From NCBI RefSeq assembly GCF_023509035.1, contig NZ_CP075583.1, positions 1,488,001-1,552,000 on the forward strand: a stretch of DNA of 64,000 bases, given 5' to 3'. The position numbers and the translations under genes were made by a program. Every line of letters begins with the position of its first letter. Within the stretch, counting starts at the first letter, position 1. This DNA is from Janthinobacterium lividum. GTDB lineage: Bacteria > Pseudomonadota > Gammaproteobacteria > Burkholderiales > Burkholderiaceae_D. Of this stretch, positions 34,445 to 55,264 are shown piece by piece. A model generated the notes under the pieces. That model did no database searches. It was given only the letters and a program-made list of their open reading frames with translations, and was not told where the DNA came from.

Positions 34445-35593
34445 ATGGATTTTTGTCTCAGCAGCGAGCAGCAAGAAGCTGTCTCACACATCCATCGTTT
34501 TGCCCGCGAAGTGTTGTCCGCCTCGGCCAGCGAACGCATCGCGTCTTCCCATTTCGACCGCAACAAGTGGACGCAGGCGTCAGAGATCGGCCTGGCCGGT
34601 TTGCCGTTGCCTGAAGAGTGGGGCGGTTCCGGCTTTGGTGCGCTCGATACCATGCTCGCGGTGGAGGCGCTCGGCCAGGGTTGCGTCGACATGGGGCTGG
34701 TGTTCTCCTTGTGTGCACACATGTTCGCTTGCGCTGTGCCGCTGTGGCGCCATGGTTCGCGCGAGCTGCACGAGCGCTACCTGTCTGGTATGGCGAAAGG
34801 CAGCCTGATTGCCGCCAATGCGATCACCGAGCCTGGCTCCGGTTCCGACGTATTCGCAATGCGCAGCAGCGCGCGGCGCGACGGCGAGCACTACATCCTC
34901 AACGGCGAAAAATGTTTCGTCACCAATGCGCCGGTGGCCGATGTCTTCCTGCTGTATGCGAAGACCGATGCGCACCAATCCTATTTCGGCATCAGCGCCT
35001 TTTTGATCCCGCGCGGAACGCATGGCCTCACAGTGACTACCGGTGAGCGCAAGTCGGGCCTGTGCACCTCGCCCTGGGGCAGCGTCCATTTGGAAGACTG
35101 CAGAGTACCCGTATGGGCGCGCGTGGGCGACGAAGGCGCGGGCGCGACCATCTTCCATGACTCCATGATCTGGGAGCGCGGCTGCCTGTTTGCCGCCTAT
35201 GTCGGCGCGATGGAGCGCGTGCTTCAGCAATGCGTCACGCATGCGCGCGAACGTAAGCAGTTCGGCCGTCCGATAGGACACAACCAGGCGGTGTCGGACC
35301 GGCTGGTCGACTTCAAGCTGCGCCTGGAAACATCGCGCCTGCTGCTGTACCGCGCCGGCTGGCTCTATGACCAGGGCCTGCCGCATGAAGAGGCGATCGC
35401 ACAAAGTAAGCTGTGGGTGTCCGAGTGCGCGGTGCAATGTGGGCTGGACGCGGTACAGATCTTTGGTGGCGCCGGTGTCTGCAGCGAGACCGGCATCGAT
35501 CGCTTGCTGCTGGATGCACTGCCGGCGCGCATCTTCTCCGGCACCAATGAAATACAGCGCGAGTTCATCGCACGGCACATGGGGCTGCGTTAG
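34445..35593 (+). CDS. pigA: L-prolyl-[PCP] dehydrogenase PigA
   Basis: Flavin-dependent acyl-CoA dehydrogenase-fold enzyme, 382 residues. In prodigiosin synthesis PigA oxidises L-prolyl bound to the carrier PigG to pyrrole-2-carboxyl-PigG. Visible family motifs: ITEPGSGSDVFAMRSSARRD (FAD-binding region, near residue 120), LSSEQQEAVSHIHRFAREVL at the start, and HARERKQFGRPIGHNQAVSD. The usual catalytic EGT in the C-terminus is SGT here (IFSGTNEIQ), so the base must sit elsewhere, as in isovaleryl-CoA dehydrogenase, or the mechanism differs. First gene of the pig operon; the identity rests on the colinear pathway context. Confidence 0.92.
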   Translation: MDFCLSSEQQEAVSHIHRFAREVLSASASERIASSHFDRNKWTQASEIGLAGLPLPEEWGGSGFGALDTMLAVEALGQGCVDMGLVFSLCAHMFACAVPLWRHGSRELHERYLSGMAKGSLIAANAITEPGSGSDVFAMRSSARRDGEHYILNGEKCFVTNAPVADVFLLYAKTDAHQSYFGISAFLIPRGTHGLTVTTGERKSGLCTSPWGSVHLEDCRVPVWARVGDEGAGATIFHDSMIWERGCLFAAYVGAMERVLQQCVTHARERKQFGRPIGHNQAVSDRLVDFKLRLETSRLLLYRAGWLYDQGLPHEEAIAQSKLWVSECAVQCGLDAVQIFGGAGVCSETGIDRLLLDALPARIFSGTNEIQREFIARHMGLR

Positions 35594-35721
35594 CCCGAAT
35601 CATTCGGTTTCGCATACGCGCCGTACACATAGCTTGTCCGTGGCTAGCTGTAATCCAACGGTCCTGCAAAGCTGGCTTTTTGAAGGCAGCTGTTCAACCC
35701 GGGAAAAGGTAGAGACAGAAA

Positions 35722-38700
35722 ATGGCAACGCAGAAAAAGTTCCCCAGCAAGGATTATGAAAAAGGTGCAGCGGACATTCCCGTTGCGGAGGATAGCGGTG
35801 TGCGGGAAGGCGAAGCGGTCGGCGCTTGCGACGTGGTGGTGGTCGGCGGCGGGCTGTCCGGCCTCGTGGCAGCCTGGAAGCTTGCTGGCCATAGCGTGCT
35901 GGTGCTGGAGCGGGAGTCCACGGTGGGCGGCGCGGCGCGCAGCGGGCAGCGCGGTGAACTACGCTTCGCCACAGCAGGCAGCTGCTTCCAGGAGCCGGTT
36001 CCCGGTTCGGACACGGCGCAATTACTGAGCGGGCTCGGCTTGTCCGATGCATGGCGCTCCACCGGCAACAGTCAATTCGTGCTGTTCAACACACGCCATC
36101 TGCTGCGCCGTCTGGGGGAGGTCACGCTGGGGCTGCTGAAGCAGCCGAAGGAGTTGCTGAACCCGGCGATGTATGGACTGACATGCAACCTGCTCGGCGC
36201 CGCATTGCGCGGCAAGAAATTCATCGCGGCGCCGAAGAAGCTGGGCGATCCGGTGTTTGCGGAACTATATGCCTACCTGCAGCGCTTCCGCAAGGATGGC
36301 GGCAAGTATCCGGCGGTACCGTGGCAACCCGGATGCGGCTGGACGCGCGAGGAGATGGAACAGTTCGACTCGATTTCGCTGGCCGAACTATTGTTCGATG
36401 AGAAAGTGCGTTCGCGGCTGCCAACGGCGCTGGTGCCGGATGCGAAGTTCGGCCCGCTGGTGCGCGATGCGGTCGAGACGACCCTGAAAGTGGAATGTCT
36501 GTCGGCGGCGGATGTGTCCGCCTATGTCGGGCTGCACTTCCTGGTCGGCTACTTGTATGGCACGCTGGTGACCTTCCCCGGCGGGAACGGTTATCTCAGC
36601 GAACGTCTGCAGGCGGCGTTGCGCGAGCGTGGCAACTGCCGTATGGCAGTCGGTGCGCGCGTGCAGACGGTTGCGCGTGATGGCGAACGTTACCGCATCA
36701 CCTTTGAACGTCGCGGCGTGCAGAGCGAGGTCAGCGCCGGCGCGGTGGTGTGGGCCGCGCCCAAGCATGCAGCACTGGATGCGGTCTCCGGTTTGCCGGC
36801 GCAGCAGCAGCATGCGATACGTCAGATCCAGCACCGCGACTACTGCATCGCGAACGTCTACCTGCGCAACGCTGCCTGGACTGAATACTTCGGCGGCTAT
36901 GTGATCGAAGGAGATACCGCCGCCGCTGCGCCGCTGGCCTGGTGCCGCAGCCGCGTGTGCGTGGTCGCCAACTGGCTGGACCGCGACAACGGTAAGAAAG
37001 CCGGTGTGCTGACCTTGCTGAAGCCGGTGGCGGAACGGCTCAACCAGGGCAAACTCGGCAAGACAGATTTTGCGCAGCTGCAGCAGGTGACCTTGCAGGA
37101 AGTGTCGGAAATGCTGCAGGCGAAGGGACTATCCACTGACGAGGTGGAAGACATCCGGATCTGGCGTTGGTCGCGTGCGTTGGTGGTCGCTACGCGCGGG
37201 CAAATTAAAGCCGACTTGTTTGTGCGGGCATCGCAGCCGGTGGGTGGGGTTTCCTTTGCGAACCAGGACAGCGTCGGCATCGGCAACCTGGAGAGCGCAG
37301 TGAGCGCAGGGTTCAATGCGGCACAACAGGCGCAGGCATACCTGCAGCGCACGGCGGCGGATACGATGGTGGTGCAAGCACTGCGTTCCGGCCTGCATGT
37401 GATGGAAATTGCCGGCAACCCTGCGACCGGCGTGCAGCGTTTCGGCGGCAAGGCTAACTCGCTCAATACATTGATCGGCGCCGGCTTCCCGGTGCCACGC
37501 GCATATTGCGTAACGGTCGATGCCTGTCATGCTTTTTTGCAGGCATCCGGATTGGCGGCCTGGATCGACGGCATGGACAAGGTCGACCGCGACACCTCCG
37601 CCGACATCCGCGCACGCATTGCGCAAGCGCCGTTGCCGCCCGCGCTGCAGGATGCGATCATCGCTGCCTATCGCGAACTCGGTAGTGGCCGGGTCGCGGT
37701 GCGATCCTCCGCCGTCAATGAAGACGGCGATGCACAATCATTTGCAGGCCAGTACGACACCTTCCTGCACGTGGAGGGCGAGACCGCGCTGCTCGATTGC
37801 GTGAAGCGTTGCTGGGCGTCGCTGTGGAACGAACGCGCGCATGCCTACCAGGGGCGCAACCGGGCCGACGGCGGCATTGCGGTGGTGATCCAGCAGATGA
37901 TCGTTGCCGATGCTGCCGGCGTGTTGTTCACTGCCGACCCGATCAGCGGCGATGCCGGACGCACGGTGATCGAATCTTGCTGGGGATTGGGCGAGGGCGT
38001 GGTGTCGGGCCAGGCGAGCACCGATACCTATGTGGTGGACAGCGACAGTCATGCGCTGATGGAACGTATTGTCCGGGCGAAGCCGGTGATGTGTGCGCGC
38101 GCTGCAGATGGCGTCGCGATGCAGGAGGTACCGCCGCAATTCGTTGATCAGCCGAGCCTGAGCGATGTGCAGGCATCCGAACTGGCGGCCTGTGCCGCAC
38201 GCATTCGCCGCCATTACGGCTGCGAACTGGATATCGAATGGGCACTGAAGGATGACAGTATCTGGATACTGCAGGCACGGCCGATCACGGTGACTGCTTC
38301 CATCGCCGGTAAGCTGTACGGCGACGAGCAGGAAACCAATCAGCAGGTGCGCGACAACACTATGTTTTCGCGCATGGACACCGGTGAAATCCTGACCGGC
38401 CTGATGACGCCGCTCGGACTGTCCTTCACCCGCTTCTACCAGCACCACGTGCACGGCCCGGCAGTGAAGACCATGGGCTTGCTCGACATCGGCAGTTCGC
38501 AGTATTACGTCGGCTACCTGCAGGGTTATGTGTACCTGAACATCTCCGCATCGGCGCGGCTGCTGACGCAATGCCCTCCCACGCACGAGCCGATGAAGTT
38601 CACGCGGCGCTACGCGACCCCCGACGTCGACTTCACGCACTACAAAAATCCCTACGGCGAACCGGTGTCTGGGTTCCAATTCTTCAAGAGCAGCCTCTAC

Positions 38701-40098
38701 TGGCTGGTATGCCAGGTACATAATATGGCGACTGCTGGCGGCACGGTGAACAAGATGATCTCCTTGCGCCAGCGCGAAACCGAGCGCTTCCGCAAGCTGG
38801 ATTTCGAGAAGATGAGCCTGCCGCAGCTCAATGCCGAACTGCAGCGCATCGACCGCTACTTCCTCGAATCCTGTGCTGCCTACATGCCGTTCTTCCTGCA
38901 ATCCTTCGCGCTGTACGATGCGCTGGCGGAGCTGTGCGAGAAGTGGCTGGGGAACGAAGGAAAAGGGCTGCAGAACCGCATCAAGGCATCGATGAACAAC
39001 CTGCGTACCATCGAGGTGACGCGTGGCGTGTGCGAACTAGCAGCGCGCGTCGACCGCTCGCCGGTGCTGCGCACACTATTCCTGGAGACGCCGCTGGAGC
39101 AGTTGGCGGATAACTTGCAGCAGCATGCAGAGGGCCGCCGTTTCTGGAACGAGAATTTTGGCGCCTTCCTCGCGGACTTCGGATCGCGTGGTCGCCAGGA
39201 ATTCGAACTCAGCATTCCGCGCTGGAACGACGATCCGACCTATCTGCTGCAAATCATCCGTCTGTACCTGACCAGCGATGTGCAGCTTGAATCGCGTCTG
39301 GCGACGATAGACAAGGCGCGCGAAGAAGACACGCGGCAGTTGCTGGACAAACTGCCGCTCAAGGCAAGGATGACATTCCGCTTCGTGATCGCCGCCTACG
39401 CGAAGATGGCGGAACGGCGCGAAGCGACGCGTCCGACCCTCATCGCCGAGACCTGGTTCTACCGCAAAATCATCGTCGAGGTGCTGCGCCGCGTCGAGGC
39501 GGAGGGTGTGTCTGGCATACAGGACCTGCCGTACATCGATTTCAACGAATTGCGCGATTACGTGGCCGGGCGCAAAACGGCGCAGCAGGCATTTGCTCCG
39601 CAACTGATTGCGCGCAACCGTCAGCAGCATCTGCTCAACGAGCGCCTGAAGGAACCGCCAATGGCGCTGATCGGCGGCCATGTGCCGCACCGCGACGATC
39701 AGATGTTGCTGGACGCGGCGCAGGGCGACCTGCTGCATGGCCTCGGCGCCAGCCCCGGCGTGGCGGTGGGGCGCGCCCGCGTGATCACCGACCTCAACCG
39801 CCAGGCGGGCGAATTCCGCCAGGGCGAAATTCTGGTGGCACGCTTTACCGATGCATCGTGGACGCCGCTGTTCGTGCTGGCGGCCGGGGTGGTCGCAGAC
39901 ATCGGCTCGGCCTTGTCGCACAGCTCCATCGTGTCGCGGGAGTTCGGTATTCCGGCGGTCGTCAATGCGAAGCAGGCGACGCAGACCATACGCACCGGCG
40001 ACCTGATCTACCTCGACGGTGACGGCGGCGTGGTGCGCATCGAGGAACGCGTTGCCGATACCGACGAACCGCTGGTCGAGCAGAGAGTGATCGCATAA
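35722..40098 (+). CDS. pigBC: fused PigB-PigC: FAD-dependent MAP oxidase plus MAP/MBC condensing enzyme
   Basis: A 1458-residue reading frame. Residues about 35-545 are a FAD amine-oxidase/phytoene-desaturase-like enzyme (VVVVGGGLSGLVAAWKLAGH; C-terminal FANQDSVGIGNLESAV) corresponding to PigB, which oxidises dihydro-MAP to MAP. Residues about 565-1458 are PigC-like: an ATP-grasp PEP-synthase N-domain (FGGKANSLNTLIGAGFPVPR; LDIEWALKDDSIWILQARPI) and a swivelling PEP-utiliser domain with His1400 in ALSHSSIVSREFGIPA. PigC condenses MAP and MBC using ATP. In Serratia these are two proteins. The N-terminus lacks membrane helices. A TGATGG at the junction (about 37400) would serve as a coupled stop/start if an upstream indel existed, so the fusion needs checking. 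Confidence 0.88.
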   Translation: MATQKKFPSKDYEKGAADIPVAEDSGVREGEAVGACDVVVVGGGLSGLVAAWKLAGHSVLVLERESTVGGAARSGQRGELRFATAGSCFQEPVPGSDTAQLLSGLGLSDAWRSTGNSQFVLFNTRHLLRRLGEVTLGLLKQPKELLNPAMYGLTCNLLGAALRGKKFIAAPKKLGDPVFAELYAYLQRFRKDGGKYPAVPWQPGCGWTREEMEQFDSISLAELLFDEKVRSRLPTALVPDAKFGPLVRDAVETTLKVECLSAADVSAYVGLHFLVGYLYGTLVTFPGGNGYLSERLQAALRERGNCRMAVGARVQTVARDGERYRITFERRGVQSEVSAGAVVWAAPKHAALDAVSGLPAQQQHAIRQIQHRDYCIANVYLRNAAWTEYFGGYVIEGDTAAAAPLAWCRSRVCVVANWLDRDNGKKAGVLTLLKPVAERLNQGKLGKTDFAQLQQVTLQEVSEMLQAKGLSTDEVEDIRIWRWSRALVVATRGQIKADLFVRASQPVGGVSFANQDSVGIGNLESAVSAGFNAAQQAQAYLQRTAADTMVVQALRSGLHVMEIAGNPATGVQRFGGKANSLNTLIGAGFPVPRAYCVTVDACHAFLQASGLAAWIDGMDKVDRDTSADIRARIAQAPLPPALQDAIIAAYRELGSGRVAVRSSAVNEDGDAQSFAGQYDTFLHVEGETALLDCVKRCWASLWNERAHAYQGRNRADGGIAVVIQQMIVADAAGVLFTADPISGDAGRTVIESCWGLGEGVVSGQASTDTYVVDSDSHALMERIVRAKPVMCARAADGVAMQEVPPQFVDQPSLSDVQASELAACAARIRRHYGCELDIEWALKDDSIWILQARPITVTASIAGKLYGDEQETNQQVRDNTMFSRMDTGEILTGLMTPLGLSFTRFYQHHVHGPAVKTMGLLDIGSSQYYVGYLQGYVYLNISASARLLTQCPPTHEPMKFTRRYATPDVDFTHYKNPYGEPVSGFQFFKSSLYWLVCQVHNMATAGGTVNKMISLRQRETERFRKLDFEKMSLPQLNAELQRIDRYFLESCAAYMPFFLQSFALYDALAELCEKWLGNEGKGLQNRIKASMNNLRTIEVTRGVCELAARVDRSPVLRTLFLETPLEQLADNLQQHAEGRRFWNENFGAFLADFGSRGRQEFELSIPRWNDDPTYLLQIIRLYLTSDVQLESRLATIDKAREEDTRQLLDKLPLKARMTFRFVIAAYAKMAERREATRPTLIAETWFYRKIIVEVLRRVEAEGVSGIQDLPYIDFNELRDYVAGRKTAQQAFAPQLIARNRQQHLLNERLKEPPMALIGGHVPHRDDQMLLDAAQGDLLHGLGASPGVAVGRARVITDLNRQAGEFRQGEILVARFTDASWTPLFVLAAGVVADIGSALSHSSIVSREFGIPAVVNAKQATQTIRTGDLIYLDGDGGVVRIEERVADTDEPLVEQRVIA

Positions 40099-40150
40099 AC
40101 ATTCGGTAGTTATCTCCGCAGATTTCAATTTTCCACTAAAGGACAAAAAT

Positions 40151-42592
40151 ATGGATATGACGGCTATAGGCGTGGTTGTTGTCACGCGCCGCCGCGAGTT
40201 CTTTGAAACCGGTCTCAGTGTGTTGAACGATGTGCGCGGCGAAGTATTCCAGCACGTGGAAATTGATGCCGACATCGACTATGCACCAGCACAGTCGGTG
40301 TCGAACCCGGTATATCTCGAAGCGTGCGACAAGGCGGTGCGCTTCCTCGCCGCGCGCCAGGAACGCTTGGCGATCAAGGTGATCCAAGCCGACAGTCTGG
40401 AGGCGGCGTTCGACAAAATTACCGCCTCGCCCACGCAGGGCGGCTTCCAGATTTGCATGCTGTTCATCGATTACGCCGATCCGCTGTACGATGGCATCAG
40501 CCCGCAAGAAATCGACGAGCAGCTTGCTAGCTTCCACGCGCGCCTGCAAGAGGCGGCGGTGCCGGCATTCTGCTCTTCGTTTTCGACGGCGGTATTCACC
40601 TCGCCGCACGAGAACCGCATCCGCTACCAGCCGATGGAATACATCGAATGCATCCTGCCGTCCGAAAGGGCGGTGCTGCAGACGGAGTTGCTCTGCCTGT
40701 GGATGGATTTCCTCGAACTCAGTTATGTCAATCGCCGCGCCAAGACCGACACACGCGGCCCGCGCAGGAATACGCTGGCCTGCTTCCTGACCGGCTTCCT
40801 GTCCGGGCGCGCCTGCAGTGACTGGCTCGGTTTTTACTTCACCGGTTCGCTGGTGTCCAATCTGATCAATTATTTTGAAGTGGAAGCGAACCGGCTTGGC
40901 GCGCTGGTGCTACGTGGACCGAGCGAACACAGCCTGGCTTGCGGCGCGATGGCCAACTGGCAGCTTTACAAGAAGCCGTTCGCAGTGATCGTTACCAGCG
41001 GCATGATCGACGAATTCCGGGGTACGCTCGCCAACCTGCGCGAGGCGCGCGCCAAGGGCTTCATCGTATGCGCGGAAAACCGTGCCAGCCAGTGGTTTGC
41101 GTTCCAGGGCACGATTTCTAGCGAGGAGGATACGCGTGCGGTGCTGCAGGCGCGCGGCATTCCTTATGTGTACATGGAAGACGTCGACAATATCGCTGAA
41201 GACCTTCGACGCGCGGTGGCGCTGTACGACGCAGGGCAGGGGCCGGTGGTGCTGTTGGCGACGCAGGCAGTGCTCGACGCCGGCGACGAACTGGATCCGG
41301 CTCTGTTTGCACCTGCGGTCAACGAGTGCACGGCAGCGCCCGACGAGGCGGTGCAGGATGTTTTGCACGACGTGATGCAGATCATCAACCAAGGGCCGGA
41401 ACGGCTGCTGTGGCAATGCGGGCCGATGGATGAGGAAGAACTGGCGTTGACCTTGTCGATCGCCGAGCGTGCCGGCATCGCGCTGACCGATTCCCTCACC
41501 CATCCCGGTTCGGTGCCGAAGTACCGCGACGGCAAGCGTATTCCAAATTACATCGGCACGCTGGCAGTGTACGGCTACAGCCCGCGCGTGTACAACTATT
41601 TGCATACCAGGGACAAGCTCAATCCGCAGTCGCAGCAATGCCTGTTCTTCATGAAAAGCAAGCTTGGGCAGGTCAGTACGCCGTTTTCGGAAGGCCGGCT
41701 GAAGCGCAAGCTGAGAATCGTGCAACTGACCCGCAACGCCGCACACATTTCACCCTTTACCGACCATGGGTTGGTGATGGACTACCGTAGCTTCCTGCGC
41801 CATGTGGACCGCCACCTCGACGTGTCGCCGGCCTTGCGCGAACGCCGCTGTCGACTGATGGCCTCGGTGCCGGACACGCCGTCGGATGTGGCAAGCAAAC
41901 TGCCGGCGACACCGATGAGCCCGAACTATTTTTTCGCGCGCCTGAATCAACTGGTGGAAAAGCTGATCGTCGAGCGCGCTTACGACTACACCGGCCTGTA
42001 CGACGTCGGCCGCTGCGGCATGTCGGCGGTCCGCAACGTCGCGCGCACCCGGCGCGGCTTTTCCGGTTGGTACGGACGGGCGCTGATGGGGGATGCGCTG
42101 CAGGCCACGCTGAGCGTCGCGTACACCAGCGGCACCAACGTTGTCGCCTTCATCGGCGACGGCGCCAAGGGCCTCGTGCCCGAAATTCTGCCGAGCTTTA
42201 TCGAGAACGCGCTGAATTATCCTGACCGCATGCGTAAGAATTTCACCGTCTTCTACTTCATGAACGGCGGCCACTCGGTGATCAACACCTACCAGGAGCG
42301 CATCCTGTTCAACCGCACCTCGCGCCAGATGCGACTGGTGAACCTGATGTCCGCGGACTGGGAAGAAGACATCTGCGGTCTGCAGGTCTGCGCGCGCACG
42401 CTCGACAGCTTCGACGCCGACATGCTGGCCGAGGCGCTGCAGAAGCCGGGGCGCGTCAATCTGTTCTCGGTGGTGGTTGGGCATAACAACGAAGGCGACG
42501 GAATAAGCTTGGCGACGGCGACGGGATGGCAGCGCGATGAGATGCAGATTGAGCCGGCTGCCGTGGCGGACGATGTGCCGTTGATCGTGTGA
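40151..42592 (+). CDS. pigD: thiamine diphosphate-dependent 3-acetylalkanal synthase PigD
   Basis: An 813-residue ThDP enzyme. In Serratia PigD adds the acetyl unit from pyruvate to 2-octenal, giving 3-acetyloctanal for the monopyrrole MAP. The C-terminal ThDP-binding region is visible (VAFIGDGAKGLVPEILPSF, then FYFMNGGHSVINTYQER), with a pyrimidine-binding part around residues 225-400 (FTGSLVSNLINYFEVEANRL, ALVLRGPSEHSLACGAMANW). The N-terminal about 210 residues are the extra domain typical of PigD. An AAAGGA site lies 7 bases before the ATG. It starts 52 bases after pigBC. Confidence 0.93.
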   Translation: MDMTAIGVVVVTRRREFFETGLSVLNDVRGEVFQHVEIDADIDYAPAQSVSNPVYLEACDKAVRFLAARQERLAIKVIQADSLEAAFDKITASPTQGGFQICMLFIDYADPLYDGISPQEIDEQLASFHARLQEAAVPAFCSSFSTAVFTSPHENRIRYQPMEYIECILPSERAVLQTELLCLWMDFLELSYVNRRAKTDTRGPRRNTLACFLTGFLSGRACSDWLGFYFTGSLVSNLINYFEVEANRLGALVLRGPSEHSLACGAMANWQLYKKPFAVIVTSGMIDEFRGTLANLREARAKGFIVCAENRASQWFAFQGTISSEEDTRAVLQARGIPYVYMEDVDNIAEDLRRAVALYDAGQGPVVLLATQAVLDAGDELDPALFAPAVNECTAAPDEAVQDVLHDVMQIINQGPERLLWQCGPMDEEELALTLSIAERAGIALTDSLTHPGSVPKYRDGKRIPNYIGTLAVYGYSPRVYNYLHTRDKLNPQSQQCLFFMKSKLGQVSTPFSEGRLKRKLRIVQLTRNAAHISPFTDHGLVMDYRSFLRHVDRHLDVSPALRERRCRLMASVPDTPSDVASKLPATPMSPNYFFARLNQLVEKLIVERAYDYTGLYDVGRCGMSAVRNVARTRRGFSGWYGRALMGDALQATLSVAYTSGTNVVAFIGDGAKGLVPEILPSFIENALNYPDRMRKNFTVFYFMNGGHSVINTYQERILFNRTSRQMRLVNLMSADWEEDICGLQVCARTLDSFDADMLAEALQKPGRVNLFSVVVGHNNEGDGISLATATGWQRDEMQIEPAAVADDVPLIV

Positions 42593-42648
42593 CGACAGAT
42601 AGCTCGTGCTCGGACGGGCTCCTTTTCCCTGCCAGGAGGAGGGGATAA

Positions 42649-45219
<2,571 letters not shown>

Positions 45220-45232
45220 TGGGAACCGTAAC

Positions 45233-46255
45233 ATGGAAATGAATAAAGAGCAGATCGTTGACTTGATGATGGGATTTTTCAAGACCAAGACGATTACTTC
45301 CGCCCTGGAACTTAAAGTCTTCGACGCGCTGGAGCAAGGCCCGGCAACGGCAGAAGCCATTTGCGAGCACCGCAACATTCCGCTGCAATCCGGCAAGCGC
45401 CTGCTGATCGCGTTGACTGCCATCGGCCTGCTGGCGAAGGAGGAGGATCATTTCTGCCTCACTAAGGCTGCGAGCGAATACATGGTGAGTGGTTCAGCGC
45501 AATGGCTGGGCTGGCTCGGTCGCCATATCGATACCTTCCTGTATCCGCTGTGGTCACATACGGCGCAAGGGGTGCGTGACGACAAGGATCAGCGTCAGGC
45601 GGCTTTCGGTGATGACCGCAGCTGGTTCAGCATCCTGTACCAGAACCCGCAGGATGTAGTTGATTTCCAGGAATTCCTCGGCATTTTCGCGAAACCCTTT
45701 ATCGAGGGCATGCTGCAGGGATTCGATTTTTCCGGCTACAGGAAATTCATGGATATCGGCAGCGGCATCGGCACCTTGCCGATGGCTGTCGCTGCGCGCT
45801 ATCCACAGCTTGGCCTTAGCGTCTGCGAACTGCCGCAGGCGACTAGCTTCGTGCGCGACAAGATCGCCGAGAACGGTTATGCCGACCGCATCAAGATCGT
45901 GGCGGGCGACGTCATCAGCGGCACCATCCCCAAGGGGGAACACGACCTGATTCATCTCGGCTGGATGCTGCACGACTATGCGCCGGACATCCAGATGCAG
46001 ATCCTGCGTCACATCCACGAGGCGCTGCCGCCGGGCGGCACCTTCATCGCTAGCGAGACACCGTTGGCCGATGACGAAAGCGGCCCACTGTTCACGTCGC
46101 TGCTGTCGATCAACATGCTGGTGTCCACTGACGGCGGCATCGAATCGACCTGCACGCAATACCTGCAACGCTTCACAGAAGCGGGCTTCGTCAATGCAAG
46201 GGTGCAGGCGATACCGGGGCCACGCACCTTGTTCATCGGCGAAAAGCGGAAATGA
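45233..46255 (+). CDS. pigF: O-methyltransferase PigF
   Basis: A 340-residue class I SAM methyltransferase of the plant-type small-molecule OMT family: an N-terminal helical dimerisation domain with a winged helix (KTKTITSALELKVFDALEQG) and a Rossmann domain with KFMDIGSGIGTLPMAVAARY near residue 170 and the catalytic-region HLGWMLHDYAPDIQMQILRH. In the pathway PigF methylates the hydroxyl of HBC to give MBC, aided in Serratia by PigN. No pigN is found in this cluster. Starts 13 bases after pigE. Confidence 0.92.
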   Translation: MEMNKEQIVDLMMGFFKTKTITSALELKVFDALEQGPATAEAICEHRNIPLQSGKRLLIALTAIGLLAKEEDHFCLTKAASEYMVSGSAQWLGWLGRHIDTFLYPLWSHTAQGVRDDKDQRQAAFGDDRSWFSILYQNPQDVVDFQEFLGIFAKPFIEGMLQGFDFSGYRKFMDIGSGIGTLPMAVAARYPQLGLSVCELPQATSFVRDKIAENGYADRIKIVAGDVISGTIPKGEHDLIHLGWMLHDYAPDIQMQILRHIHEALPPGGTFIASETPLADDESGPLFTSLLSINMLVSTDGGIESTCTQYLQRFTEAGFVNARVQAIPGPRTLFIGEKRK

Positions 46256-46301
46256 GCGCGGCTGTCAGAAACCTGAAAACATCATCTAACGAGAGGACAC
46301 T

Positions 46302-46580
46302 ATGTTAGGAAACAAGCTTCTCGCGTATATCGCGGAGAACTACCTCGGCGGCGAGTGCCAGCAGTTTGCGTTGGACACGCCCTTGCTGGAATTGAACATC
46401 ATCGATTCCAGTGCGTTGTTCGATCTGGTCGACCTGCTGCGGCGGGAAGCCGGCGTGACGGTGCCGCTGAAGGCGGTCGTCCCGAACAATTTCAAATCGG
46501 TGCAGCACATGCTGGATCTGGTCGAGCGCCTGCAAAGCGAAAGCCGACCGACACTGGCCCAGGCAGCGGGGGTAGCATGA
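46302..46580 (+). CDS. pigG: peptidyl carrier protein PigG
   Basis: A 92-residue carrier protein that holds the prolyl and then pyrrolyl group. The phosphopantetheine site is Ser36 in LELNIIDSSALFDLVDLL. A GAGAGGA ribosome-binding site precedes the ATG. Its stop overlaps the start of pigH (ATGA), so the two are translationally coupled. Target of PigL and loaded by PigI. Confidence 0.92.
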   Translation: MLGNKLLAYIAENYLGGECQQFALDTPLLELNIIDSSALFDLVDLLRREAGVTVPLKAVVPNNFKSVQHMLDLVERLQSESRPTLAQAAGVA

Positions 46581-48521
46581 TGAACGTACAGGTAATCGAC
46601 CACATCGCAACGCCGGACGCAGGACTGCAGGCGTATGTGCTGGACATGTTCCAAACCCACACCGGCTACGCACGCGCCGACCTCGTGCCGGATGCCGATT
46701 TTGAGAGCGATCTCGGCATCGACTCGGTTACGCTGGCCACAACCCTTGCGGAGCTTTTACAAGGCGCTCGGCCTGTCCAGCCGGCAAAATCCGCAACACA
46801 CAAGCACGATTGCGCTCGTGCTGGCGCATATCGGGCAATGCCTGGAACAGGACGGAAAGACGCTTGCCTTGCCGCAGCGACCCTGCGTGCCGGAGCACGC
46901 AGCCGATGCGCTGACGACGGCGGTAATCGCCGCCTACAGCCGGCACACCGGTTACAAGCCGAGCGAGCTCGTGCTGGATGCCGAGCTGGAGAGTGATCTC
47001 GGCATCGACTCCGTTACTCAGGCAGCCGTGTTGTCCGAGCTTCCCAAGTTGCTTGGGATTGCCGCCGTCACCTTTCCCACAGGGTTGACCAGCATTGCAC
47101 AGGTCATCGCGCATCTGCGGCCTCTCGTGCACCTGGAAATGCTGGAACCGGCAGCTCCGGCAATTGCAGTTCCGCCGGCGACGAAAGAAAAGAAGTGGTC
47201 AGAGTTCATCGACAACCTCGGCCATGCTGACGTCAGCGCTATTTCCGTGGCGGCAGAGCCGACAGCGGACGACGCTCGTACGATGAAGGATTTCGTCAAC
47301 ATCCCGCATCGCGACCTGTTCCATAAGGCCCGCGAGTTCAATACGTTCTATCAGCGCAAGCAGCAAGAACAGTTGTACTGGTACGGCATGCCGCTGGAAT
47401 CGCGCTGCAGCAACCGTGCGGTGATCTACGACGAGGTCAGCGGCAAGCGTCGGGAATTCCTGATGTTTGCGTCGAACAATTACCTGGGCCTGGCGAATCA
47501 TCCGGAAGTGATCGAGGCGATCGTCAAGGGCGTGCGCGAATACGGTGCCACTAATACCGGCTGCCGCCTGATCGGCGGCACCAATGTGCTGCACATGGAA
47601 CTGGAGCGGCGGCTGGCGAAGCTGAAGGGCAGGCAGGCATGTATCGTCTACCCGTCCGGCTATTCCGCCAACCTGGGATGCATTTCCGCGCTGGCCGGGC
47701 AGAACGATCTGATCTTTACCGATGCGCTGAACCACATGAGCATCCAGGACGGCTGCAAGCTGGCCGGCGCAGCGCGCAAGATTTATCCGCACGACCTGGA
47801 CGGACTGGAAAAAATTCTACAGAAATATGCCGACCACGACGGCGGCAAGCTGATCGTCACCGACGGCGTGTTCAGCATGCACGGCGATGTGGTCGACTTG
47901 CCGCGCCTGGTCGCGCTGGCGAAGCAATACGGTGCGCGGGTCTTGGTTGACGATGCGCATTCCACCGGTGTGCTCGGCCGCACCGGTTCGGGCACCACCG
48001 AGCATTTCGGCATGAAGGGCGCGGTGGACCTGGAAGTCGGCACCATGAGCAAGACCTTGGCTGGCGTCGGCGGCTTCGTTTGCGGCGACGAGGAGGTGGT
48101 CGATTACCTGCGTTTCTATTCGCATTCCTATGTGTTTGCAGCCACTATCCCGGCGGCGGTCGCGGCCGGCCTGATCGCCGCGATCGACGTGATGGAGCGC
48201 GAGCCGCAGCGCATCAGCATGCTGTGGCGCAACGTCCATCACTTGCGCGGCCATTTGCTGAAAGCCGGGTTCGACCTTGAGCATTCCGCCAGCGCGATCA
48301 TCCCGGTGGTGGTCGGCGATGATCGCAAGACGCTGGAATTTGGACGCGCGGCGCGTGCACGCGGCATGTATTGCCAGACCGTCGTGTTCCCCGGCGTCGC
48401 TGTCGGCGATGCGCGTTTGCGCATCAGCGTGAGCAGCGAGCACACGGCGGATGATCTGGATGAGGCGGCGCAGATACTGGTGGATGCGGCGAAGGAGGTG
48501 GGGGTGGAGGTGCGGGGATAG
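46577..48521 (+). CDS. pigH: PigH: tandem ACP plus PLP oxoamine synthase, apparent frameshift
   Basis: Two carrier domains followed by an alpha-oxoamine synthase. The first ACP has DFESDLGIDSVTLA; the second, about 100 residues on, has ELESDLGIDSVTQAAVLSEL. The synthase part (about residues 245-647) has VLVDDAHSTGVLGRTG and PLP Lys in GTMSKTLAGVGGFVCGD. PigH condenses serine with the pyrrolyl-beta-ketoacyl thioester to give the bipyrrole HBM. The frame breaks at a TTTT run (46755-46758); removing one T gives AELYKALGL and one 647-residue protein, the expected PigH size. As written, the first ACP is cut off. Confidence 0.92.
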
Positions 48522-48543
48522 GTTTTCAGGTGAAGGACTTACG

Positions 48544-48574
48544 GTTCCTTCCCCTCTGTAAGGGGGAAGGTGCC
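48544..48574. repeat. palindromic hairpin between pigH and pigI
   Basis: CCTTCCCC-TCTGTAA-GGGGGAAGG forms a stable stem-loop without a T-run, in the largest gap inside the pig operon (153 bases). It resembles a REP-like extragenic palindrome and may stabilise the upstream message or weaken read-through. Confidence 0.6.
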
Positions 48575-48674
48575 CTATCCCGGATAGCAATGTGCGTGCA
48601 CGGAAACGGCAAAGGACCGGTTACCCTCTTTTTTACAAAGAAGTGAAGCACCTCAATCTAATTAACGGACGAAC

Positions 48675-50303
48675 ATGAGCACTCCAACCTTCACCCCAGT
48701 CATTGATTACCTGCGCACCTCCGCGCAGGAACATCCCGATCGCCTTGCATTCGTTGATCCTGATGACATCAGTTTTAGACAGTTCTACCAGGCCGTGCGC
48801 CAGCGCGCTGCACATTTTGCCCGCCATGGAACACAGCATGGCGACCGCGTCGCCATCTGGCTGCCGAAATGCCAGGACTATGCGTTGTCGCTATATGCGG
48901 CGATGGAAATCGGCGCCGTCTATGTGCCACTGGACGGCACGCAGCCGGCGGAACGCGCAAGGAAAATCCTGGACAGCGCCGAACCGACGGTGCTGGTCAC
49001 GGATGCCGCACATTTCCGTGCGCTGGACGGATGGCAGCGCGATACGCTGAAACTGATACTGATCGTTGATGATGTGCCTTGCGATTATGCGCCGGTTGGT
49101 AACACTGCGATCATGAAGGTTGCCGCAATACAGCCGTCGGTCGAACTGCCGCCACCATTCGCCGCCGGTGTGGACGATCTTGCCGCCATCCTGTTTACGT
49201 CCGGCTCCACAGGCGTGCCGAAAGGCGTGCAGATCAGCTACGGTAACCTGCACAGTTTCATCGCTTGGGCACTGGCGGAATTCAAGATGACGTCGCACGA
49301 CGTATTCGCCAACCATGCCGGTTTTCATTTCGACCTTAGCACCTTCGATTACTTCGTCGCTGCTGCAGTCGGCGGTGCGGTATGGATCGTGCGCGAGGAC
49401 GAGCAGCGCGATCTTGCGGCGCTGATCGCCGGCATCCGGCGACACAAGGTCAGCGTCTGGTACAGCGTGCCGTCGGCACTCGCGCTGCTGGCTGGCAGCG
49501 GCGAGCTGACATCTGAGGTTACTGCATCGTTGCGCCATGTGCTGTTCGCTGGCGAGGTATTCCCGATACGGCAACTGCAGGCATTGAAATCCTGCCTGCC
49601 TGCGACATGCGCGCTGTATAACCTGTACGGCCCGACCGAGACCAACGTCTGTTTGTACTACCACGTGCGCGAAGATGACATGGCCCGCGATAAGCCAGTC
49701 TATATCGGCAGCACGCTGCCCGGCGTGATTGCGGAAATTCTCGACGCCGACGGGCAGCCGGTCAGCGGCGAACGTGCGATCGGCGAACTGGTCGTTTCTG
49801 GCGCGTGCGTGACGCCTGGCTACTGGCGCCGGCAGGAACCGGCCAATCACGTCAACCATCTGCACGGGCGGCATGCCACAGGTGACTTGGTCGGCATCGA
49901 GAACGGCTTCCTGTACTACCACGGCCGCAAGGACCGCATGCTCAAGCTCAACGGCAACCGTATCGAGCTGGGCGAAATCGAAGCGGTGCTGGGCGCGATG
50001 CCGGGTATCGCAGAAGTCGCGGTCGTGGCGGAGTGCGCGGGGGATACGCAACACATCGTTGCCTATTACACGCTGCGTCATGCCGGCGAAAGACTTGGCG
50101 TGCTCGATATCAAGAGCTACTGCAGCGCCCGGCTTCCGCGCTACATGATCCCCAGGCTTGCCTGGCAACTGGAAGAATTGCCGAAGAATGCGAATGGCAA
50201 GATCGACTACCGCGCGCTGGAGCAACTGACTCGCAGCACCAGCGACACCGCAGCCATGCCGCATGCGGACGACCGCAACGACATCGTCACCGCCGATGCA
50301 TAA
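48675..50303 (+). CDS. pigI: L-prolyl-AMP ligase PigI
   Basis: A 542-residue free-standing adenylation enzyme. It activates L-proline and loads it on PigG. Motifs: AILFTSGSTGVPKGVQISYG near residue 173, FHFDLSTFDYF, YNLYGPTETNVCLYYHVRED, GRKDRMLKLNGNRIELGEIE near residue 416, and the C-terminal Lys in LPKNANGKIDYRALEQ. The stop overlaps the preferred pigJ start. It is the first committed step of the bipyrrole branch. Confidence 0.93.
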   Translation: MSTPTFTPVIDYLRTSAQEHPDRLAFVDPDDISFRQFYQAVRQRAAHFARHGTQHGDRVAIWLPKCQDYALSLYAAMEIGAVYVPLDGTQPAERARKILDSAEPTVLVTDAAHFRALDGWQRDTLKLILIVDDVPCDYAPVGNTAIMKVAAIQPSVELPPPFAAGVDDLAAILFTSGSTGVPKGVQISYGNLHSFIAWALAEFKMTSHDVFANHAGFHFDLSTFDYFVAAAVGGAVWIVREDEQRDLAALIAGIRRHKVSVWYSVPSALALLAGSGELTSEVTASLRHVLFAGEVFPIRQLQALKSCLPATCALYNLYGPTETNVCLYYHVREDDMARDKPVYIGSTLPGVIAEILDADGQPVSGERAIGELVVSGACVTPGYWRRQEPANHVNHLHGRHATGDLVGIENGFLYYHGRKDRMLKLNGNRIELGEIEAVLGAMPGIAEVAVVAECAGDTQHIVAYYTLRHAGERLGVLDIKSYCSARLPRYMIPRLAWQLEELPKNANGKIDYRALEQLTRSTSDTAAMPHADDRNDIVTADA

Positions 50304-53025
50304 GCCGCCGGCTTTCGAACCGATCGCGATCATCGGCATCGGTTGCCTGTATCCACAGGCGCGCGGTAAGGATGCGTTCTGGCGGCAGCTGCAGGCGGGG
50401 AAGTCTCACTTTGCACCGCTGCCGCTGGCACGTTACTGGGACACTGACGGCAACGTGCGCGAACAGTTGCGGGGATGGCACGGCGCCTTTTTCGACGAGA
50501 TGGAATTCGATTTCAAGCGCTTCCGCATTCCGCCGGTCTACCGCAAATCGGTATCGCAAATGATGTTGATGCTGTTACAGGTGGCGGACGAGTGCGTGCG
50601 CGATGCCGGGTATGACAAGCGCGATCTGCCGCGCGATGAAGTGGCCGTTATGTGCGGCACCTGCTTCGGCTTCGACAGCACCATCGCCAACGCACTGAAG
50701 GTGGAAGGCGTGCGGCTGGCGCATGAACTTGCTGGCAGCACCGAGGAATTTTCGCTCCTGAAGGAGACATTGCGCGAGCGCTTCGGTTCCTCCTCGCATG
50801 ACCGGGTCGGCGAAATGGCAAGCAGCATTCCGGCGCGCATTGCATCCTTCCTGTCGCTGCGTGGTCCGGTGCAGGCAATGGAATGCGCGGATGCGACCGG
50901 CTACGCGCTGCTGGAGGCGGCAAGCCTGTCGCTTCATAGCGGCCAGAGCAGGGCAGTAATCGTCGCCAGCGGACAACGCATCGAGAGCCTTCTGACGCCG
51001 TTGGCACTGGCAAGAAAGGGTTTTACTGGCGCCTGCGGCGGCCACCCTTTTGCGCAGGACGGAGCAGGCACGCCGATGGGCGAAGGCGCCACAGCGCTGC
51101 TGCTCAAACGCTTGTCCGATGCGCGACGCGACAACGACCGCATCTACAGCGTGCTGCGCGGCATGGGTGCGGCAAGGCAGGACGTGCCGGGGGCATTGGC
51201 TTATGCAGTTGATGGCACGGCGGCGTTCCATGTGATCAATGAAGCTTGTGCTCAGGCGGAAGTGACGGCGGCGGCGCAACAGTATATCGACTGCGTGCTG
51301 CCCGGCATCGGCAGCCAGGCGCCGCAGTTGTTTAGCGTCTTGAGCGATGCATGTGCGGAAGGCAAGCATCGGCCGCTGCAAGTTGGCGCCAGTGTCGCCA
51401 CATTCGGTCATACCTTTGCCAATGCGGCACTCGCCGCGGTAGCAGGCAGCAGCCTGGCGTTGCACGAAAAAACCTTGCCGCAGATGCGGAGTTCGGCAGC
51501 GCTGCATGCGCGTGCCGGTATTGCGTATTCCGATGCTGCTATTCCTTGGCCTGGCGACGCGCCGCAGCTTGCCGGCGTCTTTGGCAGTAGCCTGACCGGC
51601 GTGCAATGGCATCTGCTGCTGTCGGCACCCGAAAGTGCCAGTCATGCATTGTCGTCCGATATGTCGCCTTCGCAAGAAGAGCAGGAACCGATTGCGATCG
51701 TCGGCATCGGCGGTGCCTTTGGTCCCTGCAGCAATAGCGCCGACTTCGCGCAGCGCCTGTTCGACGGCCTTGATGCAGTGCAGCCGCTGCCGGAAAACGT
51801 GCTGCCGCGCTCCGCCTATTTTGGCGAAGGCGAGGCCGGTGTGCTGTCCAGCTATGCGCAATACGGCGCTGACCTCAAGCAGCGCGAGTATTACGATGCC
51901 GGTCTTGCCGCATATAAAATATTCCCGAAGCGCGCTGCCGCGCTGGATATCGCGCAAAAGCTGACCCTGCATGTCGCCGCCGAAGCACTGGTCGATTTCG
52001 GCTTGGCGCAGAAGCGCGACAAGCTCGGCCGCACCGCGGTGATCGTCGCCTCCAATCTCAGCCTGGGCCGCGAGCGCGAACTCGCGTGCCGGCTGCACGC
52101 GCCTGAACTGGTGCGCACCTTGGGAAGCGTGCCCGATGCCGGTACGGCGGACAACGGCATCGATCATTTCACGCTGGACGGCTACCTTGCCAGCGGCAGT
52201 GCGGCACTGGTGTCGGCCTGCTTCGGCCTTGCCGCGATGCCGGTCGCGGTGGAAGCGGCCTGCGCGTCGTCACTGGCAGTGTTCAACAATGCGGTGCTGG
52301 CGTTGCGTCGGCATCGCTACGACCTGGTGCTGGCCGGCGGCGTCGAATTGCCGGCCAACCTGCGCGATCTGGTGCTCTGTTCGTCGCAAATGATGCTGTC
52401 GCAACAAAGGATAGCGCCGTTTGCCGAGCATGCCGACGGCTTCTCGCCGGGCGATGGCGCGGCGCTGTTCGTGCTCAAGCGGCTCAGCGATGCGCTGCGC
52501 GACGGCGACCGTATTCATGCGACGATCACCGGCGTTGGCGGCTCCGCCGATGCAGTGTCGATGACCGCGCCCGATCCGGACGGGCAGGCGCTGGCGATGC
52601 GCCGCGCCTTCGCGCAGGCCGGCTATGCGGCAGCCAGCGTGCAGTACGTCGAAGCACACGGTACCGGCACGCGCCTGGGCGATCTCGCGGAACTGACGTC
52701 GATCGGCAGCGTGTACGGCGGCGCGCGCGCAGTGCCGCTGCGCATCGGTTCGGTCAAATCCAACATCGGTCATACCTTCGCCGCCGCTGGCGCCGCCGGC
52801 TTGCTGAAAACGGTGCTTGCCTTGCAGCGGCATGCGCTGCCGGCCACCTTGCTGCGCCGCCGGATCGATCCGCAGTTGCCGCTGGCGGGCATCCCGGCCG
52901 AACTGGTGACCGCCAACACGCGCTGGGATGCGATCGACGGCAGCCGGCGCGCGGCGGTCAGTTCCTTCGGCACTGGCGGCATCAATTACCACCTGCTGGT
53001 GCAAGCAGATGGCAGCGTTCACTAA
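50296..53025 (+). CDS. pigJ: PigJ: tandem beta-ketoacyl synthase
   Basis: About 909 residues with two ketosynthase-like halves. Together with PigH it extends pyrrolyl-2-carboxyl by a malonyl unit. The second half is canonical: Cys656 (VEAACASSLAVFNN), His788 (YVEAHGTGTRLGD), His826 (SNIGHTFAAAGAA). The first half has a Cys at 197 in an unusual setting (MECADATGYALL), lacks the HGTGT histidine (YIDCVLPGIGSQ stands there) and keeps only the later His372 (TFGHTFANA), so it looks like a chain-length-factor-type partner. An ATG at 50263 is also possible; 50296 is preferred because the similarity begins soon after it. Confidence 0.92.
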   Translation: MHKPPAFEPIAIIGIGCLYPQARGKDAFWRQLQAGKSHFAPLPLARYWDTDGNVREQLRGWHGAFFDEMEFDFKRFRIPPVYRKSVSQMMLMLLQVADECVRDAGYDKRDLPRDEVAVMCGTCFGFDSTIANALKVEGVRLAHELAGSTEEFSLLKETLRERFGSSSHDRVGEMASSIPARIASFLSLRGPVQAMECADATGYALLEAASLSLHSGQSRAVIVASGQRIESLLTPLALARKGFTGACGGHPFAQDGAGTPMGEGATALLLKRLSDARRDNDRIYSVLRGMGAARQDVPGALAYAVDGTAAFHVINEACAQAEVTAAAQQYIDCVLPGIGSQAPQLFSVLSDACAEGKHRPLQVGASVATFGHTFANAALAAVAGSSLALHEKTLPQMRSSAALHARAGIAYSDAAIPWPGDAPQLAGVFGSSLTGVQWHLLLSAPESASHALSSDMSPSQEEQEPIAIVGIGGAFGPCSNSADFAQRLFDGLDAVQPLPENVLPRSAYFGEGEAGVLSSYAQYGADLKQREYYDAGLAAYKIFPKRAAALDIAQKLTLHVAAEALVDFGLAQKRDKLGRTAVIVASNLSLGRERELACRLHAPELVRTLGSVPDAGTADNGIDHFTLDGYLASGSAALVSACFGLAAMPVAVEAACASSLAVFNNAVLALRRHRYDLVLAGGVELPANLRDLVLCSSQMMLSQQRIAPFAEHADGFSPGDGAALFVLKRLSDALRDGDRIHATITGVGGSADAVSMTAPDPDGQALAMRRAFAQAGYAAASVQYVEAHGTGTRLGDLAELTSIGSVYGGARAVPLRIGSVKSNIGHTFAAAGAAGLLKTVLALQRHALPATLLRRRIDPQLPLAGIPAELVTANTRWDAIDGSRRAAVSSFGTGGINYHLLVQADGSVH

Positions 53026-53040
53026 CCACGGGAGTCTCAC

Positions 53041-53361
53041 ATGCAATCCATCGTCCATAAAATCCGCCTGCTTGACATCGGCCATGCGCAGGCTTTCGAA
53101 AACTGGGTACTGGATACCGACTATGCGACCTGTCCGGAATTGCCGAGTGTGCGCAGTTTCGACGTGCACCGGGTCAGTAGCGCGCATGATGCGCCGTTCC
53201 ACTATATCGAGGTAATCAAGGTGAGCAGCAACGAGGCATTCAAGCGCGACATGGGCAGCGTGAGCTTCGCGCGGCTGGTGGCATGCTTTTCCACGATGGC
53301 GGAAGTGGTGGAGGAAGTCGCCGGCACACAGCTCGGCGCCGGTTACCGGGCGCCTGCATGA
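53041..53361 (+). CDS. pigK: PigK, HapK/RedY-like small protein
   Basis: A 106-residue protein (MQSIVHKIRLLDIGHAQAFE; PFHYIEVIKVSSNEAFKRDM) of the small REDY/HapK type found in all prodiginine clusters, probably a dimeric alpha/beta-barrel (ferredoxin-like) fold. Its role is not settled; an accessory or chaperone role in bipyrrole formation has been proposed. A GGGAGTC ribosome-binding site precedes it. Its stop overlaps the pigL start (ATGA). Confidence 0.88.
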   Translation: MQSIVHKIRLLDIGHAQAFENWVLDTDYATCPELPSVRSFDVHRVSSAHDAPFHYIEVIKVSSNEAFKRDMGSVSFARLVACFSTMAEVVEEVAGTQLGAGYRAPA

Positions 53362-54104
53362 GCGGCATTGCCGCAATCATGTTGCCTCAGACGGAAACGC
53401 CTTGCATAGTGGGCATCGGTGACTGCGTTGTCAGCGCAGTGTCGGTCGAAGCGGTAGCGCGGCGCGAAAATGATCATGTTTACCTCACACGCATGTTTGG
53501 CAATACCGAGCGCGAGCGGCTGCACGGATTGCGGCTGGCCAAGCGGCGCCGCGAATGGATGGCCGGGCGCGTCGCCGCCAAGGCCGCATTACAGCATCTG
53601 CATGCGCAGGCCGGTGCCGAATCGCCGTTGCATGCACTGGTCATCGGCAACAGCAGTGCCGAACACAATCGGGGCCAGCCGGAGGCAGCCGGTGGCCATG
53701 TCAGCATCAGCCATTCGCAAGGATATGCGGTGGCTGCGGCCAGTGCTTATCCGGTCGGCATCGATATAGAGCGTGTGAGGCCGTTTCCGGATGCAGCGCG
53801 CGAGATGGCATTTACTGCGCATGAATTGCGCGTCAGCGCCGCCGGCGGCGATGCCGTCTGTACTGCCGTCTGGGCCTTCAAGGAAGCCTTCATGAAGGCA
53901 CACGGGAAAAGCATATTCGGCTGGTTTGCCGACATCGAGCTGGAAGCAATCGGCTGCGATGGCTACTTGTCATGGCGCGTGTCGCCGCGCCTGGTGGCAC
54001 AGTTGCCGAGCAGCCAAGGATCGCAGCTTAGCGGCTACGGCGGGCTGATCGGCGATTACGCGCTGGCGCTGGTAGGACAGTGCGTGTCACACGGGTACGG
54101 GTAA
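53358..54104 (+). CDS. pigL: 4'-phosphopantetheinyl transferase PigL
   Basis: A 248-residue Sfp/EntD-type transferase that attaches phosphopantetheine to PigG and the PigH carrier domains. The signature appears as VGIDIERVRPFPDAAREMAF near residue 132 and VWAFKEAFMKAHGKSIFGWF near residue 172; the Arg/Lys-rich AKRRREWMAGRVAAKAAL lies near residue 60. The ATG overlaps the pigK stop; an in-frame upstream ATG at 53283 lies inside pigK and is not preferred. It may also serve the neighbouring FAAL/NRPS locus. Confidence 0.92.
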   Translation: MSGIAAIMLPQTETPCIVGIGDCVVSAVSVEAVARRENDHVYLTRMFGNTERERLHGLRLAKRRREWMAGRVAAKAALQHLHAQAGAESPLHALVIGNSSAEHNRGQPEAAGGHVSISHSQGYAVAAASAYPVGIDIERVRPFPDAAREMAFTAHELRVSAAGGDAVCTAVWAFKEAFMKAHGKSIFGWFADIELEAIGCDGYLSWRVSPRLVAQLPSSQGSQLSGYGGLIGDYALALVGQCVSHGYG

Positions 54105-54113
54105 GGGACGTTT

Positions 54114-55264
54114 ATGGAATTTGAAGAAAACCTGCTACAAGCAGTCGACATTGCGCGCCAGGCGCCGTCTTCGCACAACTGCCAGCCATGGAAGCTGGTG
54201 TACATCGAAGACAGGCGGATGCGGGCGCAACTTTGCCGGCACATGCTTGGGCGGAGCACGAGCAGTTGCTGCTGCTGGGCATCGATCGCAAGCGTACGTT
54301 GAGAGCACTACCCGGTCTTACGCTGGAAATGCAGCTCAGTTGCGGCATGTTCCTCGGCTTGTTGAGCGCGGCCTTCGATGCGCTGGGCTTTCACTGCAAC
54401 TGGCACTGGCTGGATATGCTGGATACGCAGACCCCGGCAGCCATGCCATTCTTGCAATCGCTGGAACAACGGTATGGCTGCCGGGGCCTGGTGTTGCTTG
54501 CTCTGCAGCCGCAGCACGTTCCAGATGCCACGGCATTAGCCGGGTTGCAAGACAGCGTCCGGCAGCGCCGTACTCATCGCGCGCCGTTTGCCGAGGGCAG
54601 TTGCAGTGACATGGTGCTCGCGCAATTGCTGGAACGGCACTGGCCGGAACAACTGACCGGGGACCAACTGCATATCCGGGTGGAACGCAGCCCGGCCTTC
54701 ATTGCCCGTGCCGCCGATTTGGTACGGCAGTTCGCGGCGCTGGACTTCTCCAGCTACCGCGCATGGAAGGAAACCTACCGCTACCTGCATTTCGATCCGC
54801 GCAAGCCGGCCGAGGACGGTTTTTATCTGCATAGCCTGATGGGACCGATGTCGCCGCTGCGTACGCGCATCATGCAATGTGTGCTGGCGCCGGAGGTCAT
54901 GCAAGTGCTGCGCATCGTGCGCGTGCCGCATAACATGGCGGCGCAACTGGCGGCGCTGGTAGAAGACTCAGCGCAACTGCTGTTGTGTAGCCTGCCGTCG
55001 GACGACGTTGCATCGACGGTGATGGTCCAGGCCGGCGCGCGCCTGATGGAAGTATGGCTGAACGCGCAGCGGCTCGGACTTGCGCTGCACCCGCTCAGCG
55101 TGATGCTGCAGCACAACCGGGCGCGCGGCGAATTGCAGCGCCTGGCCGGCGGCGACCGGCGCATCGTTTTCTTCGCGCGCCTCGGTGCGATCAGGCAGCG
55201 GCACGGCGAATGCCTGCGTAGGCCGCTTGCCGCCATCATTGAAACCCACGGCGAGACAGTCTGA
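54114..55264 (+). CDS. pigM: PigM: nitroreductase-like HBM oxidase, apparent frameshift
   Basis: About 383 residues when repaired. The N-terminus NLLQAVDIARQAPSSHNCQP is the classic nitroreductase-family FMN-binding start; the C-terminal part (VIGNS-type absent; FYLHSLMGPMSPLRTRI, then ARLMEVWLNAQRLGLALHPL) also fits. PigM converts the alcohol HBM to the aldehyde HBC before methylation by PigF. The frame breaks at CGGGCGC (54222-54228); one added G would read RMRGATLPAHAWAEHEQLLL. Last gene of the pig operon; IS debris begins about 30 bases downstream, where pigN would be expected. Confidence 0.88.

Follow-up and report, generated by a model that had tools for sequence, protein, structure and literature searches.

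The window analyzed here is a 64,000-nucleotide stretch of Janthinobacterium lividum DNA, part of one 6.26-Mb contig (G000:C1:1488001-1552000). Judged from its sequence, it very probably holds a horizontally spread Oxalobacteraceae prodigiosin cluster in which PigB and PigC are fused, lying beside an NRPS region in an island at a Tn7-like site, with breaks in pigH and pigM that are most likely assembly errors. The pig block runs from 34445 to 55264, entirely on the forward strand, with its functions ordered from pigA to pigM, and both the order and the scores are far beyond chance (Table 1). Families were assigned with the NCBIfam equivalog models and their cut-offs, together with Pfam (0.001), and the cluster was identified as a prodigiosin cluster from the equivalog matches of PigA, PigC, PigD, and PigE combined with the gene order.

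Table 1. Features of the pig block and its surroundings (window positions).
Feature	Position	Strand	Evidence
Island left edge, end sequence common to Tn7-like elements of sister genomes	32897..32922	+	26-base pattern
IS21-type istB remnant, frame-broken	33526..33731	-	DNA matches to plasmid istB; NF038214 in two neighboring frames
pigA, prolyl-carrier dehydrogenase	34445..35593	+	NF053553 683.6 bits, cut-off 500
Fused pigB-pigC: FAD H2MAP oxidase domain (aa 4-539), prodigiosin ligase domain (aa 559-1442)	35722..40098	+	NF053556 and NF052631
pigD, ThDP enzyme (MAP branch)	40151..42592	+	NF053552 1371 bits, cut-off 950
pigE, reductase-aminotransferase (MAP branch)	42652..45219	+	NF053554 1417.6 bits, cut-off 850
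pigF, O-methyltransferase	45233..46255	+	PF00891; closest solved structure 7clf, E 3.5e-134
pigG, prolyl carrier protein	46302..46580	+	Position; serine motif; colinear matches of 41-98% in other pig loci
pigH, two carrier domains and oxoamine synthase, frame broken near 46755	46577..48521	+	PF00550 (carrier piece), PF00155 (aminotransferase)
pigI, prolyl-AMP ligase	48675..50303	+	PF00501 and PF13193; matches in other pig loci
pigJ, double ketosynthase	50263..53025	+	PF00109/PF02801 in two stretches; NF053555 492 bits, cut-off 900
pigK, HapK-like	53041..53361	+	PF11639 154 bits
pigL, phosphopantetheinyl transferase	53358..54104	+	PF01648 and PF17837; start taken as the ATG that overlaps the stop codon of pigK
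pigM, FMN oxidoreductase-like, frame broken near 54232	54114..55264	+	NF047509 98 bits, cut-off 199; relatives
IS21-type istA remnant directly after the pig block	55278..55505	+	NF033546 E 2.7e-9; self-match
Second Tn7-like end copy and inner sequence	56001..56728	+	Pattern; about 725 bp, 90% identical to the G004 element end
Second istA remnant (within ORF 56380-57132)	56723..57132	-	NF033546 E 5.9e-23; self-match
NRPS region start, same island: thioesterase, fatty acyl-AMP ligase, modules beyond the window	58047..64000	+	

The first-pass annotation had described a complete, colinear pigA-M cluster with 13 functions. The single strand, the coordinates, and the functions in pigA-M order were borne out, but the cluster cannot be called complete as sequenced, with the frames of pigH and pigM broken, and it comprises only 12 genes, given that PigB and PigC share one ORF. 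The MBC branch (PigA, PigF to PigJ, PigL, and PigM) is present in order, with PigA above its equivalog cut-off and PigJ below, the best stretch of the latter covering the C-terminal half. Family models match PigG and PigM weakly, and these two were placed by position and colinear relatives. For PigG, Pfam gave no match at 0.001 and the carrier-protein matches were all below cut-off; no Pfam match was found for PigM, whose subthreshold match is to the Acg-type FMN oxidoreductase model. The deposition title of the structure closest to PigF names a methyltransferase domain-containing protein, and we take this to be PigF itself. Motifs were also located for the phosphohistidine of PigC, the PLP lysines of PigE and PigH, the serines of the PigG and PigH carriers, the signature of PigL, the nucleotide-binding turn of PigB, and the C-terminal ketosynthase of PigJ. 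Scans for promoters and terminators inside the pig cluster gave nothing above chance, and the promoter scan gave two weak promoter-like sites upstream of it.

By homology to the published pathway, MBC would be made by PigI, PigG, PigA, PigJ, PigH, PigM, and PigF, and MAP by PigD, PigE, and the PigB domain, after which the PigC domain, part of one polypeptide with the PigB domain, would condense MAP with MBC into prodigiosin and its chain-length homologues. The presence of the MAP branch, the MBC branch, and PigC together supports well the earlier proposal of a true tripyrrole prodiginine. The argument originally offered for it, that PigC speaks against a tambjamine, fails, since tambjamine clusters have a PigC homologue, TamQ; it is PigB and PigD that discriminate, having no counterparts in the tam clusters as listed in Table 1 of the source (PMC6667630). 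As both PigD and the PigB domain are found here, a tambjamine identity was rejected, as far as the available part of that source describes tam clusters (PMC6667630). For the pigment itself, the available text on Massilia frigida DJPM01 reports prodigiosin at m/z 324.208 as well as propyl, butyl, heptyl, and cyclic forms (PMC10213415). The cluster of the M. frigida type strain is 96% identical to that in the window, and the tail of the pigment may be variable.

Frame breaks in pigH and pigM

Compared with all five relatives, pigH differs in length by one base near 46755, so that as sequenced it consists of two ORFs (46577-46996 and 46635-48521), the first encoding a product of 139 residues that ends after a partial carrier domain. 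Programmed frameshifting was considered for this gene and rejected, as all five relatives read straight through. A second one-base length difference, near 54232, places the first 40 or so codons of pigM out of frame, again in a position where five of five relatives read through. The start previously given for pigM, 54188, proved to lie downstream of the start used in the relatives, which is equivalent to 54114.

These breaks could be real, in which case the cluster would be decaying and the strain would make no prodigiosin; both were seen against every one of the five relatives, and IS21 remnants lie near both cluster edges. We consider this unlikely, in view of how often such breaks occur elsewhere in the same assembly. 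Three single-contig genomes were compared over about 106 kb of backbone (G000 1600127-1732000), counting in each the unique indels that break an ORF left open in both of the others; the genome studied here (G000) had 12 such frame-breaking indels, against 3 in G030 and 2 in G020. At that backbone rate, the pig genes should carry approximately 2.4 frame breaks, and 2 were seen. Runs of four to seven equal bases were found at 11 of the 12 indel contexts in this genome, versus one of five in G030 and G020 combined. Four unique indels also occur near the island site, two of them plainly shortening ORFs, namely, a DeoR-type gene (29604-30233) and an ORF at G000 1608017, and two lying near ORF starts (21226 and 32665). 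Because of this excess of indels elsewhere in the assembly, an assembly or sequencing error appears likelier than decay as the cause of the pig breaks, a judgment drawn from one comparison of assembled genomes.

Two observations extend beyond the pig genes. The DeoR-type regulator, encoded on the reverse strand, has its C-terminal end shortened by the frame-breaking indel relative to five of five same-genus genomes. More generally, with indels in excess and mostly in one-base runs, gene breaks anywhere in this assembly should be read with care.

The fused PigB-PigC protein

The second ORF of the cluster encodes a single protein of 1,458 residues comprising a PigB domain and a PigC domain. The PigC domain covered the whole of its model with 1502 bits (cut-off 1300), compared with 994 bits for the RedH model (cut-off 1350). 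The PigB domain, which is 40 to 52% identical to the PigB proteins of other pig loci, scored 613 bits against an equivalog cut-off of 850, with the first 127 profile positions unmatched; the score falls below the cut-off because the membrane part is absent. Among 26 loci with PigD taken from named genomes, 15 had matches to both PigB and PigC in the fetched stretch and 11 did not have the two together; the duplicate partial loci L035 and L036 were dropped from this comparison. The two domains were fused in all six Oxalobacteraceae clusters (that of the window and five relatives), and in none of the 10 other loci with both. An assembly artifact was rejected as the origin of the fusion, as the same ORF is open in five other genomes. 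Outside these clusters, PigD and PigE relatives were seen adjacent to each other in Microbulbifer halophilus (L030) and Photobacterium lipolyticum (L019), with no PigB-PigC matches in the fetched stretches, as MAP-type genes apart from any ordinary pig cluster. When 5.8 billion proteins were searched and the best 8,000 candidates scored, the whole fused architecture was found in one 90%-identity cluster of 20 members (95% identity, 100% coverage), and the nine other matches among those candidates covered at most 60% of the query.

The membrane domain missing from the fused protein was traced in other loci. In four Vibrio and Pseudoalteromonas loci, the N terminus of PigB is a membrane domain of about 110 residues, and in Methylosinus and Methylocystis this domain is a separate ORF just upstream of PigB, matching Pfam DUF6041. 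The DUF6041 ORFs in the methanotroph pig clusters (L014 4935-5285 and L024 4945-5289) correspond to the membrane domain of gammaproteobacterial PigB. The three genomes searched outside the Oxalobacteraceae all yielded DUF6041, and the six Oxalobacteraceae genomes, that of the window included, yielded none. There are thus three arrangements: the membrane domain attached to PigB, split off from it, or gone with PigB joined to PigC. The Oxalobacteraceae H2MAP oxidase would then act without its membrane domain, tethered instead to PigC, and one predicted soluble protein would both complete MAP and condense it with MBC; the architecture is seen directly in the ORF, and the two steps may be coupled on it.

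The fused ORF might also yield two proteins, through an internal start or cleavage, that act as ordinary separate PigB and PigC. The full coverage of PigC and near-full coverage of a HapB-like PigB would suit such products, as would the Methylocystis arrangement, in which the reading frame of pigC starts immediately past the stop codon of pigB. We regard this as quite improbable, because the ORF is continuous, with no stop between the domains, in all six clusters, which are up to 12% apart at 4-fold sites. Such a natural fusion free of the membrane domain would put two steps on one protein and allow their physical coupling to be tested directly. The titles and abstracts of the open-license literature surveyed gave no description of a PigB-PigC fusion or of the transfer discussed below.

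The island site and the pig clusters of other genera

The pig genes and an NRPS run lie in an island of approximately 79.2 kb. At the corresponding site in eight of eight same-genus genomes, the left backbone match ends between window positions 32762 and 32894 and the right one resumes at G000 1600126-1600128. These sites were compared in 8 of the 39 other same-genus genomes, with element regions taken from three more. The left and right matches were separated by 0, 2, and 11 bases in L076, L080, and L081, and by 44, 97, and 131 bases in L077, L075, and L082, respectively, and overlapped by 8 bases in L078. The remaining site, L079 (G015), held about 7.5 kb of other DNA, consistent with an insertion hot spot.

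The left edge of the island carries a 26-base pattern with one variable base that occurs twice in this genome, in the same orientation, and is found in 7 of the 40 genomes of the genus, this one counted. In G004 and G010, inverted copies of the pattern bound elements of 27 and 23 kb, respectively, at the same site as the island, with 5-bp target duplications in their flanks. Genes of the G010 element match TniQ/TnsD and AAA_22, with Mu-transpos_C below cut-off, and have relatives in G004 and G029. The island thus shares its insertion site and end sequence with these Tn7-like elements, but differs in having tandem ends of the same type, no transposition genes found, and pig and NRPS cargo. An inverted partner end was absent from this genome at up to three mismatches, both ends being oriented alike, and, in a search for transposition genes, five proteins used as tblastn queries gave no match over G000 1488001-1612000. 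Most simply, this would be a Tn7-like hot spot in which two ends remain in tandem, one before the pig genes and one before the NRPS genes, and which IS21-type elements later eroded. Site and ends place the island at a Tn7-like attachment site, and the pig genes may have been carried there by such an element. The NRPS run extends to about G000 1588900 with many carrier domains, and its product is probably a lipopeptide.

At the DNA level, the pig block shares 94.5 to 97.8% identity with five clusters of Rugamonas and Massilia, whose match to the window stops at 55264-55276 in five of five cases, and whose left ends differ, from 33738 to 34380. At 4-fold sites, the window and Rugamonas rubra differ at 78 of 2,312 positions in the pig genes (3.4%), but at 195 of 692 (28%) in rpoB; against four Massilia species, the corresponding values are 5.3 to 11.8% and 31 to 33%. 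These figures cover six of the 12 pig ORFs (A, BC, D, E, F, and I) and rpoB as the sole housekeeping gene compared; G, H, J, K, L, and M were omitted because they were short, broken, or truncated at the ends of loci. The combination of low pig and high rpoB divergence indicates that the pigA-M block has moved recently between this genome, Rugamonas, and Massilia. Among the Massilia species themselves, the pig values (4.8 to 9.5%) are similar to those of rpoB (5.7 to 11.8%), so that the comparison demands no transfer there. In a tree of PigC, PigD, and PigE, R. rubra is the closest neighbor of the window (support 0.994) and M. frigida comes next (0.977); some splits among the other Massilia species are weak (0.247).

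Vertical inheritance within the Oxalobacteraceae, with loss in most members, would fit the pig proteins being 90 to 99% identical to those of the window in the five relatives and the block order being conserved, yet it is hardly credible given the pig-rpoB discrepancy of the window against each relative, the flanks that differ between genera, the occurrence of PigD in just 2 of the 295 relatives searched (this genome counted), and the empty site in same-genus genomes. Beside the R. rubra and Massilia clusters, no relatives of the Tn7-like element genes were found in eight flank stretches, and none of the 10 proteins scanned matched a transposase family. In Massilia mucilaginosa, an inverted repeat of about 300 bp, 88% identical, flanks the pig cluster (L137 945-1241 and L138 19547-19844). 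Recent transfer between genera remains our reading, and with rpoB so much more diverged than the pig genes, this is a clean example of a pigment-antibiotic pathway crossing genera.

Taken together, these findings allow a broader proposal, which we put forward tentatively as possible. A bifunctional H2MAP oxidase-ligase may have replaced membrane anchoring: the oxidase, which in Serratia requires its membrane domain, would have lost it here and would hand MAP directly to PigC within one polypeptide. The cluster encoding this fused enzyme may move among Oxalobacteraceae genera, here as cargo at a Tn7-like site that has decayed and also houses a lipopeptide-type NRPS.

Comparison with known prodigiosin systems

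Prodigiosin was reportedly described in J. lividum by Schloss et al. in 2010, and prodigiosin clusters in Janthinobacterium and Massilia are already in print, so that the cluster as such is not new. The red Janthinobacterium sp. BJB412, known here by description, has pig genes and is without violacein genes, and the available text on it mentions neither a fusion nor an island (PMC5754502).

The Serratia pig cluster (sp. ATCC 39006), as far as the available portions of its descriptions go, is alike in the pigA-M order and the inferred pathway (PMC6667630, PMC7065143). It differs in that PigB in the window is without the membrane domain and fused to PigC, PigJ is divergent, and no pigN follows pigM in the window. 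The HapB protein of Hahella is also without the membrane domain, like the PigB part here, although the part of the source available reports a separate Hahella gene for that domain (PMC7065143), whereas no genomic copy was found here and PigB is fused. The closest systems are the clusters of Rugamonas rubra and of Massilia frigida, M. rubra, M. aquatica, and M. mucilaginosa, which share the same fusion and differ from that of the window in having open pigH and pigM genes and in their chromosomal flanks. Against this background of a pathway already known, what is new here is the enzyme architecture, that is, the PigB-PigC fusion.
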